DNA of 64,000 nt from Pelagibacterales bacterium SAG-MED01. Lineage in GTDB: Bacteria > Pseudomonadota > Alphaproteobacteria > Pelagibacterales > Pelagibacteraceae. The first letter of the stretch is position 1; every line of letters begins with the position of its first letter. The notes under the pieces were generated by a model that was not told the DNA's origin, made no database searches, and worked only from the letters and a program-made list of their open reading frames with translations. The stretch spans positions 20,171 through 84,170 of the forward strand of contig JACWCY010000007.1 of NCBI GenBank assembly GCA_014654455.1, written 5' to 3'. Shown piece by piece: positions 62 through 1,517 of this stretch. Position numbers and translations under genes: made by a program.

Positions 62-1390
62 TTAACTAACAGCTTTTAAAGTTCCTTTTGAAGATTTGTT
101 TAAAGCTTGATCTAAATCGTCAATTATATCGTCTATATGCTCTAAACCGATACATAATCTTACGTAGCTTTGAGTAACACCTGAAGCTGCTAATTCTTTC
201 TCATTTAGTTGACTATGAGTTGTACTTGCAGGATGTATAGCTAAACTTCTAGCATCACCTATATTTGCAACGTGATAAAACATTTTTAAAGACTCTATAA
301 ATCTTTTACCCGCTTCAATACCTCCTTTTAATTCAATTCCAACCATAGGTCCATTCCCACCTTTAAGGTATTTTTTAGCTCTTTCTGCTATAAGTTTATC
401 ATGTTCAGTAGAATAAATTACTTTTGTTACTTCCTTATGTTTTTTTAAATACTCAACGACTTTTTGAGCATTATCACAATGTTGTTTCATTCTTAAAGCA
501 ACAGTTTCTAGTCCTTGGATTATAGCAAAAGCATTATCTGGTGAACATGCTGAACCTAAGTCTCTTAATAAACATACTCTAGCTCTAACTGCAAAAGGAA
601 CATTTGCTCCAGTAAGTTCAGGTACAACTTTACCCCAAATTGCTCCATTATAACTGGCATCTGGTTCATTAAACAATGGTTGTCTTTTGGGATCAGCTGT
701 CCAATCAAAATTACCGCTATCGACTATACTTCCTGCAATAGCAGTACCATGTCCTCCAATATACTTTGTCAAAGAATGTATTACTACTGCGGCCCCATGT
801 TCTATAGGTTTACATATTACTGGTCCAGCTGTGTTATCCATAATAAGTGGTATATTATACTTTCTACCTATGTCTGAAACTTCTTTGATGGGAAATACTC
901 GCAAGTATGGGTTAGGCAAAGTTTCACCGTAAAAAGCTCTAGTTTTATCATCAATTTTTTTTTCAAAGTTTTTAGGATCTTTTGGGTCAGCATATCTTAT
1001 TTCAATACCAAGTTTACTTAAGGTGTGAGTAAATAATGATACAGTACCCCCATAGAGATCAGTTGAACTAACAATATTATCCCCAGCTTGAGCAACATTT
1101 AATACTGAAAATAGTGATGCCGTTTGTCCTGATGCAACAGTTAAACATGCCAAACCACCCTCGAGAGCTGCAATTCTTTTTTCTAAAACATCATTAGTAG
1201 GGTTCATTATCCTTGTGTAGATATTGCCAAACTCTTTTAGAGCAAAAAGGTTGGCAGCGTGGTCTACACTGTTAAATTGATAAGATGTAGTTCTGTATAT
1301 AGGCACAGCAACAGCATTTGTTGCTGGATCACTTCTGTAGTCCCCACCATGAATTGCTATGGTTTCTGGATTATTTCTTTTTTTACTCAT
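62..1390 (-). CDS. metY: O-acetylhomoserine sulfhydrylase / aminocarboxypropyltransferase (PLP enzyme)
   Basis: The 442-residue protein has the Cys/Met-metabolism PLP fold of MetY: an N-terminal TIAIHGG start, an ASGQTA phosphate-binding stretch near residue 86, and a SLTKY motif placing the PLP lysine at about K209. The family condenses O-acetylhomoserine with sulfide (or methanethiol) to give homocysteine (or methionine) in the cytosol. The ATG at 1390 has a good AAGGAG ribosome site 5 bases upstream, embedded in a SAM-V-like aptamer, so control by S-adenosylmethionine is expected. It is divergent from rplM. The family call is secure; the preferred sulfur donor is not visible in the sequence. 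Confidence 0.93.
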   Translation of the reverse strand: MSKKRNNPETIAIHGGDYRSDPATNAVAVPIYRTTSYQFNSVDHAANLFALKEFGNIYTRIMNPTNDVLEKRIAALEGGLACLTVASGQTASLFSVLNVAQAGDNIVSSTDLYGGTVSLFTHTLSKLGIEIRYADPKDPKNFEKKIDDKTRAFYGETLPNPYLRVFPIKEVSDIGRKYNIPLIMDNTAGPVICKPIEHGAAVVIHSLTKYIGGHGTAIAGSIVDSGNFDWTADPKRQPLFNEPDASYNGAIWGKVVPELTGANVPFAVRARVCLLRDLGSACSPDNAFAIIQGLETVALRMKQHCDNAQKVVEYLKKHKEVTKVIYSTEHDKLIAERAKKYLKGGNGPMVGIELKGGIEAGKRFIESLKMFYHVANIGDARSLAIHPASTTHSQLNEKELAASGVTQSYVRLCIGLEHIDDIIDDLDQALNKSSKGTLKAVS

Positions 1391-1395
1391 TTTAA

Positions 1396-1450
1396 CTCCT
1401 TTTTTAGTGCTTTAACTTAATGTTAGGCGCACAATAAAGTTCAAATGCCT
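1396..1450 (-). promoter_or_regulatory. SAM-V-like riboswitch overlapping the metY ribosome binding site
   Basis: On the minus strand the leader reads GGCATTTGAACTT, then TTGTGCGCC, then AAGTTAAAGCAC, then TAAAAAAGGAG. AACTT (1441-1437) pairs with AAGTT (1418-1414), and GTGC (1432-1429) pairs with GCAC (1410-1407), an H-type pseudoknot. Its 3' strand runs straight into the AAGGAG Shine-Dalgarno of metY. This arrangement is that of the SAM-II/SAM-V family, in which ligand binding hides the ribosome site. The assignment is by eye against remembered consensus; covariance scoring would settle it. Confidence 0.8.
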
Positions 1451-1472
1451 GCCGATTGTGTAATGAGTTATT

Positions 1473-1517
1473 CCTGTTTAGCAGTTGTATGCCCGCAATA
1501 GGATCAAATCGGCATTA
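1473..1517 (-). promoter_or_regulatory. SAM-II-like riboswitch, first aptamer of a tandem pair
   Basis: The minus strand reads ATGCC (P1 5' strand, 1515-1511), a loop GATTTGATCCTATTGC, GGCAT (P1 3' strand, ending at 1489), and GCTAAACAGG (1482-1473). The loop and the GCTAAA-AGG tail closely follow the alphaproteobacterial SAM-II consensus. It lies about 23 bases upstream of the SAM-V-like aptamer of the same transcript, so metY appears to have two S-adenosylmethionine sensors in series. Confidence 0.8.

Follow-up and report, generated by a model that had tools for sequence, protein, structure and literature searches.

A compact, terminator-free SAM-II-type element ahead of SAM-V in a Pelagibacter metY leader, and a predicted helix through which it may act

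The metY leader analyzed here raises the question of what a SAM-II-type element does ahead of a SAM-V riboswitch when no terminator lies between the two. In the available portions of PMC2704228 (Table 1) and PMC11508383, SAM-II/SAM-V tandems are reported from bhmT, as an earlier note on this DNA had stated, and in the accounts covered these tandems always carry a terminator. The 2022 review PMC9481103, as far as available, counts 149 tandems in all, with a terminator always after SAM-II in the original 120, and reads terminator tandems as SAM-II ending transcription and SAM-V blocking translation. According to the accessible part of PMC2704228, metY is the commonest SAM-V setting; the HTCC1062 rows of its Table 1 list SAM-V alone at metY and mmuM and SAM-II/SAM-V only at bhmT, and the accessible part of PMC5069961 names SAM-II only at bhmT and metX. 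In the literature covered, to which the founding paper (Poiata et al., 2009) does not belong, no other account of a compact element at metY or mmuM was recognized. The window (the whole stretch of DNA analyzed, 64,000 nucleotides of Pelagibacterales bacterium SAG-MED01) carries the following features at this locus:

62..1390, minus strand: metY, O-acetylhomoserine sulfhydrylase, 442 aa (open reading frame; TIGR01326, 571.7 bits, cut-off 495.1)
1393..1459, minus strand: SAM-V riboswitch (RF01826, 75.7 bits, gathering threshold 41)
1396..1400, minus strand: Shine-Dalgarno-like AGGAG of metY, at the SAM-V 3' end (sequence; start codon 6 nt on)
1451..1471, minus strand: linker joining the SAM-II-type element and SAM-V, without terminator (sequence and terminator scan)
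1472..1515, minus strand: compact SAM-II-type element (model R1, 20.6 bits; RF00521, 15.5 bits, below 36; pairs by eye, counted over relatives)

The metY start codon lies at 1390 on the minus strand. With the whole window searched, RF01826 matches 1459–1393 of that strand with E = 1.3e-10, and the SAM-V pairs can be assigned by eye (P1, AGGC 1450–1447 with GCCU 1428–1425; P2, GUGC 1432–1429 with GCAC 1410–1407). By position SAM-V sits over the metY ribosome site, with AGGAG (1400–1396) at its 3' end, as the earlier note had described; its regulatory action there is predicted. The same note's identification of the gene as O-acetylhomoserine sulfhydrylase agrees with the TIGR01326 score, and a SAM-II-type element and SAM-V were both located where it had put them, in series before metY on the minus strand; judged from sequence, the tandem is real. 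Selective SAM binding is known for SAM-V relatives (PMC6061858, in the part available). The metY SAM-V riboswitch treated in that part (RF01826) is of the same gene and aptamer class as that of the window, but was studied as an RNA of 53–55 nt from which the upstream element was left off. The linker in the window has 21 bases (from the last SAM-II-type base, 1472, to SAM-V P1 at 1450), and its length in 157 metY leaders is 17–27 (median 20).

The upstream part of the leader can be read as a small SAM-II-like H-type pseudoknot, its parts including UCCUAUUGC and GCUAAACAGGA. In P1, AUGCC (1515–1511) pairs with GGCAU (1493–1489), with a core of GCC (1513–1511) and GGC (1493–1491); L1 is GAUUUG (1510–1505), the P2 end pairs UCCU (1503–1500) with AGGA (1475–1472), and the core stretches are UAUUGC (1500–1495) and GCUAAA (1482–1477). 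Core letters and pseudoknot layout are those of canonical alphaproteobacterial SAM-II (RF00521, SAM_alpha), from which the compact element differs in its short P1, its short L3 (5–9 nt) and its sub-cut-off score. Scoring with both Rfam models, which the earlier note had proposed, thus upheld SAM-V (75.7 bits against 41) and failed for SAM-II: RF00521 gives 15.5 bits against a gathering threshold of 36 (1525–1457; E = 0.63 in 601 bases), and the element is not among its matches in a whole-genome search with E up to 10. That note took a score below threshold as refutation; the rule is too strict, because RF00521 (E up to 10) also misses the canonical bhmT SAM-II of L250, in the HTCC1062-matching genome (G423, taken as HTCC1062 on the ground that its SAM-V places match the HTCC1062 intergenic regions of Meyer et al. 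in the available Table 1 of PMC2704228). Rfam scans may under-count SAR11 SAM-II. Taken by itself the score of this element would carry no weight, and the case therefore rests on relatives.

Leaders were taken from the best 80 metY loci of a longer list, that is, the nearest metY proteins, and SAM-V was searched in 399 genus genomes (183 matched), 397 family genomes (254), 147 order genomes (51) and 52 chosen handles; the sets overlap (many genomes recur across the genus, family and order searches), most further loci were picked for high SAM-V scores, the sample leans to close metY relatives, and the counts describe this sample and not the genus. metY was named by TIGR01326, metX by NF001209 above cut-off (L345; L350 partial), and mmuM by similarity below cut-offs (99.5 and 91.4 bits) together with coordinates in the available part of PMC2704228; in other genomes the name bhmT was assigned from a motif, L257 having only a weak homocysteine S-methyltransferase match. 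Removal of duplicates and short rows leaves 173 compact leaders, namely 157 metY leaders without a terminator (by which is meant a linker lacking any run of 7 T), 6 metY leaders with a terminator, which are from other genera, and 10 mmuM leaders. The 173 exclude duplicates, leaders with less than 128 nt of upstream sequence and loci that escaped the selection pattern; L053 lacks a leader, L175 was judged compact by eye and is uncounted, and L288–L295 were added separately. P1 is GCC/GGC in 172 of the 173 and ACC/GGU in one, and the P2 end varies among UCC/GGA, ACC/GGU and AUCA/UGAU, with few changes. The core is intact in 173/173, partly by construction, as the pattern demanded [GA]ATTT, TTGC and GCTAAA; the counterparts of the bases by which SAM-V contacts SAM (PMC6061858, available part), UUU in L1, UU before GC, and UAAA, are likewise present and likewise demanded by the pattern.

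The covariance model R1 was built from all 37 listed canonical SAR11 SAM-II elements and contains no compact member. Its best match in the window is 1517–1471 on the minus strand (20.6 bits, E = 0.0037 in 230,215 bases), the next one there reaching 12.2 bits (E = 0.67). In a search of 65 sources (60 compact, 4 controls and 1 canonical, whose locus was in the training set) R1 locates the element where expected in 60/60 compact leaders, with E from 8.8e-8 to 0.49 (43 at E ≤ 0.01 and 17 between 0.016 and 0.49), and matches 0/4 SAM-V-only metY controls, two of which are nearly identical. The metY leader of the HTCC1062-matching genome (L248) scores only 14.3 bits with R1 (E = 0.19). Chance resemblance to SAM-II was considered and dropped on the 60/60 and 0/4 results. 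A small upstream reading frame using the SAM-II-type AGGA as ribosome site was also considered and dropped, no consistent ATG being seen after it by eye. The compact element likely binds SAM.

A model of the compact class itself (R2, from 65 of 103 distinct compact elements) gives two strong matches in the own genome, both of them training rows: 69.8 bits at mmuM and 67.9 bits at metY, the next match reaching 17.2. The mmuM site (L002, 1501–1622 on the minus strand, contig C13) is a second compact SAM-II-type element with SAM-V, before a homocysteine S-methyltransferase-like gene; in G423, too, a compact element stands in both the metY (L248) and the mmuM (L249) leader. Matches to R2 occur in 54 of 197 family genomes. 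Twenty same-genus genomes are listed without an R2 match, of which 18 are also listed without SAM-V and two (G252, G545) have SAM-V alone.

Several neighboring arrangements were seen alongside. A fourth SAM-V in G423 (L251, C1:1126163–1126227, 57.6 bits) has no SAM-II-type element visible upstream, and some Pelagibacter metY leaders (L222, L233, L252, L254, L255, L265, L267) have a divergent SAM-V with no such element upstream. On contig C12 of the own genome a SAM-II-like element with canonical P1 lies 32 nt before metX (L345, 1501–1555, plus strand; R1 34.9 bits; metX NF001209 518.6 bits); it is absent from the RF00521 list (E up to 10). Elsewhere in the family, other genera have SAM-II-like elements with a short P1 on their own upstream of metX-like genes (L350–L356, L360, L362, L363), with AAGGA or GAGGA at the P2 end; L350 and L351 count in favor of the compact element. 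The metX elements L345, L350 and L351 have the L1, UUGC and GCUAAA core in common with the metY element, and L350 and L351 also the GCC/GGC P1 and the AAGGA end; they stand alone, about 20–30 nt before metX, whereas the metY element is followed by SAM-V. Three metY leaders of other genera (L357, L358, L359) have a SAM-II-like element with P1 GUC/GAC and no SAM-V in the stretch read. At L212 (1467–1573, plus strand) an Rfam freshwater-2 RNA match of 26.1 bits (gathering threshold 49.9) spans terminator and SAM-V.

The metY leader resembles the bhmT tandem in its order (SAM-II type, then SAM-V), in the position of SAM-V at the ribosome site and in serving a methionine gene. It differs in what lies between. 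At bhmT, SAM-II has a P1 of 5–6 bp and pairs through its 3' strand with a terminator; the metY leader has a short P1 and no terminator, and its linker is predicted to pair with the 5' strand of the SAM-II-type element. The possibility that the window's linker contains a terminator was considered and dropped, as the scan found no terminator-like site in the metY leader, and a run of 7 T is lacking from the linker in 157/163 compact metY and 10/10 mmuM leaders. Canonical tandems pair GCUAAAGCG, the 3' strand of SAM-II, with CGCUUUAG of the terminator, by at least 9 bp in 33/52 and at least 7 bp in 42/52, and this pairing would serve as an antiterminator; in compact metY leaders the 3' strand pairs with the linker by at most 5 bp in 151/157. 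The metY leader is thus a variant of the SAM-II/SAM-V tandem that lacks a transcription platform, and to what the earlier note had seen are added the mmuM copy and the linker helix described below. Comparison of the leaders suggests a series, from canonical SAM-II with terminator through compact with terminator to compact without, along which linker pairing shifts from the SAM-II 3' to the 5' strand.

The last stretch of the linker could pair with the SAM-II-type element's 5' strand (GCC of P1 and GAUUU of L1), which predicts a helix, P0, with these strands:

1450..1457, minus strand: P0 3' strand AAUCGGCA, ending on the base that opens SAM-V P1 (minimum-energy fold; conserved in relatives)
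1507..1514, minus strand: P0 5' strand UGCCGAUU, overlapping SAM-II-type P1 and L1 (minimum-energy fold; relatives)

The mean duplex energy of P0 is −9.81 kcal/mol, against −3.10 (sd 1.85) for shuffled linkers, with p ≤ 0.05 in 155/157 metY leaders; by a position-weighted score 131 of the 157 are significant. Each base of the UCGG core is 97–99% conserved, and the rest of the linker drifts. UCGG or UUGG is present in 155/157 compact metY leaders, in 4/6 compact metY leaders of the terminator type and in 0/64 other SAM-V leaders, which comprise canonical metY (0/11), metY-class leaders without SAM-II match (0/11, of which L195 is not metY and L300 and L303 show remains of a canonical element), canonical bhmT (0/28) and other canonical leaders (0/14), and exclude small unclassified groups of 4, 4, 1 and 1 leaders (also 0). 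Because the strand is absent before other SAM-V elements, the idea that P0 belongs to SAM-V was rejected. A P0 helix at the bhmT tandem was rejected as well (−7.26 kcal/mol, against −6.33, sd 2.12, for shuffled linkers). Fold programs, which here have no pseudoknot representation, include P0 in the minimum-energy fold of 147/157 compact metY, 6/6 terminator-type metY and 2/10 mmuM leaders; the fold of the window with P0 has −29.1 kcal/mol and z = −2.08, with 5/200 shuffles as good.

P0 is weaker elsewhere. Before mmuM it is significant (p ≤ 0.05) in 2/10 leaders by duplex energy and 5/10 by position-weighted score, and UCGG or UUGG is found in 0/10, L249 having UUGG slightly further upstream of its P1; in terminator-type compact metY leaders it is significant in 3/6 and 2/6, respectively. 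Counting against its specificity, the leader's own 5' strand pairs by at least 6 bp with the same linker stretch in 12/53 canonical leaders, versus 135/157 compact ones. Two-sided changes in P0 are few and were counted regardless of relatedness: L278 has A-U for G-C at the first base of L1 (a register with one mismatch; by eye a neighboring register pairs six consecutive bases), L279 has A-U for U-A before P1, and L249 has A-U for G-U at the first base of P1. The SAM-II-type fold and P0 share GCCGAUUU, and because both need it the two are mutually exclusive.

The reading preferred here, put forward tentatively, is that the compact SAM-II-type element, terminator-free and likely SAM-binding, acts on SAM-V by competing with P0. 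At low SAM, P0 would form, opening the SAM-II-type element and taking the first bases of SAM-V P1, and the metY ribosome site would thereby stay open; at high SAM the SAM-II-type element would fold first during transcription and block P0, upon which SAM-V would fold and metY would be switched off. In this way the upstream sensor would gate the downstream one and sharpen the response, and a steeper response from two sensors is possible. Coupling to SAM-V was inferred because the compact element lacks both a terminator and a start codon and P0 is the only conserved competitor found; that P0 couples the two sensors is likely, the sign of the effect being a prediction. The sign (open at low SAM) was chosen because both sensors should agree and because in terminator-type relatives P0 could arise only once a transcript has read through the terminator. 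At its longest, P0 reaches one or two bases into SAM-V P1 in 128/157 leaders and ends immediately ahead of P1 in 25; this overlap, like the shorter SAM-V P1 of the compact class (counts below), speaks for the preferred reading. Besides the weaker P0 noted above, it counts against this reading that P0 takes at most two SAM-V P1 bases, that stacking could stabilize SAM-V instead, and that some metY leaders have SAM-V alone. More doubtful, if still conceivable, is the stricter form: the first aptamer would lack a separate expression platform and act solely by gating a second aptamer, of another class for the same ligand, via a shared switching helix. Equally guarded is the suggestion that such aptamer-to-aptamer coupling in Pelagibacter metY was overlooked because the P1 of the first aptamer is too short for the library model.

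The stacking just mentioned could give the effect the opposite sign: P0, whose 3' strand runs directly into SAM-V P1, would stack under that helix and aid SAM-V folding, and the SAM-bound SAM-II-type element would weaken SAM-V and broaden the response. In its favor, compact leaders also have a shorter SAM-V P1 (at most 4 bp in 109/157 compact metY leaders versus 12/53 canonical leaders). This serious rival is considered unlikely, however, since two SAM sensors would then oppose each other, and since in terminator-type relatives the P0 3' strand comes after the terminator, so that P0 is confined to transcripts that have read through, and an OFF signal there would serve little purpose. Somewhat less probable still is an effect on mRNA life, with P0 shielding the 5' end at low SAM and the SAM-bound fold exposing the 5' end or the A+T-rich linker to decay. 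It would fit the available Table 1 of PMC5069961, in which metY mRNA is up 7.14-fold, mmuM mRNA 6.08-fold and MetY protein 2.24-fold in sulfur-limited exponential phase, neither gene having a terminator before SAM-V in that genome; but translation alone can alter mRNA level, the linker is partly single-stranded in both states, and promoter-like sites are within chance (1 found, 1.6 expected).

That the upstream element is a remnant which no longer binds SAM, SAM-V working alone, is improbable. P1 is only 3 bp long in most relatives, the element scores poorly with Rfam, some metY leaders do without it, and SAM-II of the bhmT tandem falls silent in vitro because of the linker (PMC11508383, in the part available); yet two genes have retained the element, a few paired changes occur in P1 and P2, and the complementary linker strand is found in 0/22 metY leaders without a compact element. 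Two independent switches, SAM-II ending transcription and SAM-V blocking translation, are the published reading for terminator tandems (PMC9481103, available part), and the earlier note had offered such separate control for metY. Its suggestion found no support: with no terminator-like site in the leader, no 7-T run in 157/163 linkers and the SAM-II 3' strand unpaired with the linker, it is very improbable here.

If a SAM-II-type element also belongs to the metY and mmuM leaders of Pelagibacter, the commonest SAM-V setting would have been studied minus its first half, and the metY leader would be a natural test of terminator-free coupling between two different aptamers for one ligand. It would also bear on the rise of SAR11 metY mRNA in sulfur limitation, where only a translational switch was listed; given that rise at metY and mmuM (PMC5069961, as far as available), an effect of the leader on mRNA level is possible.
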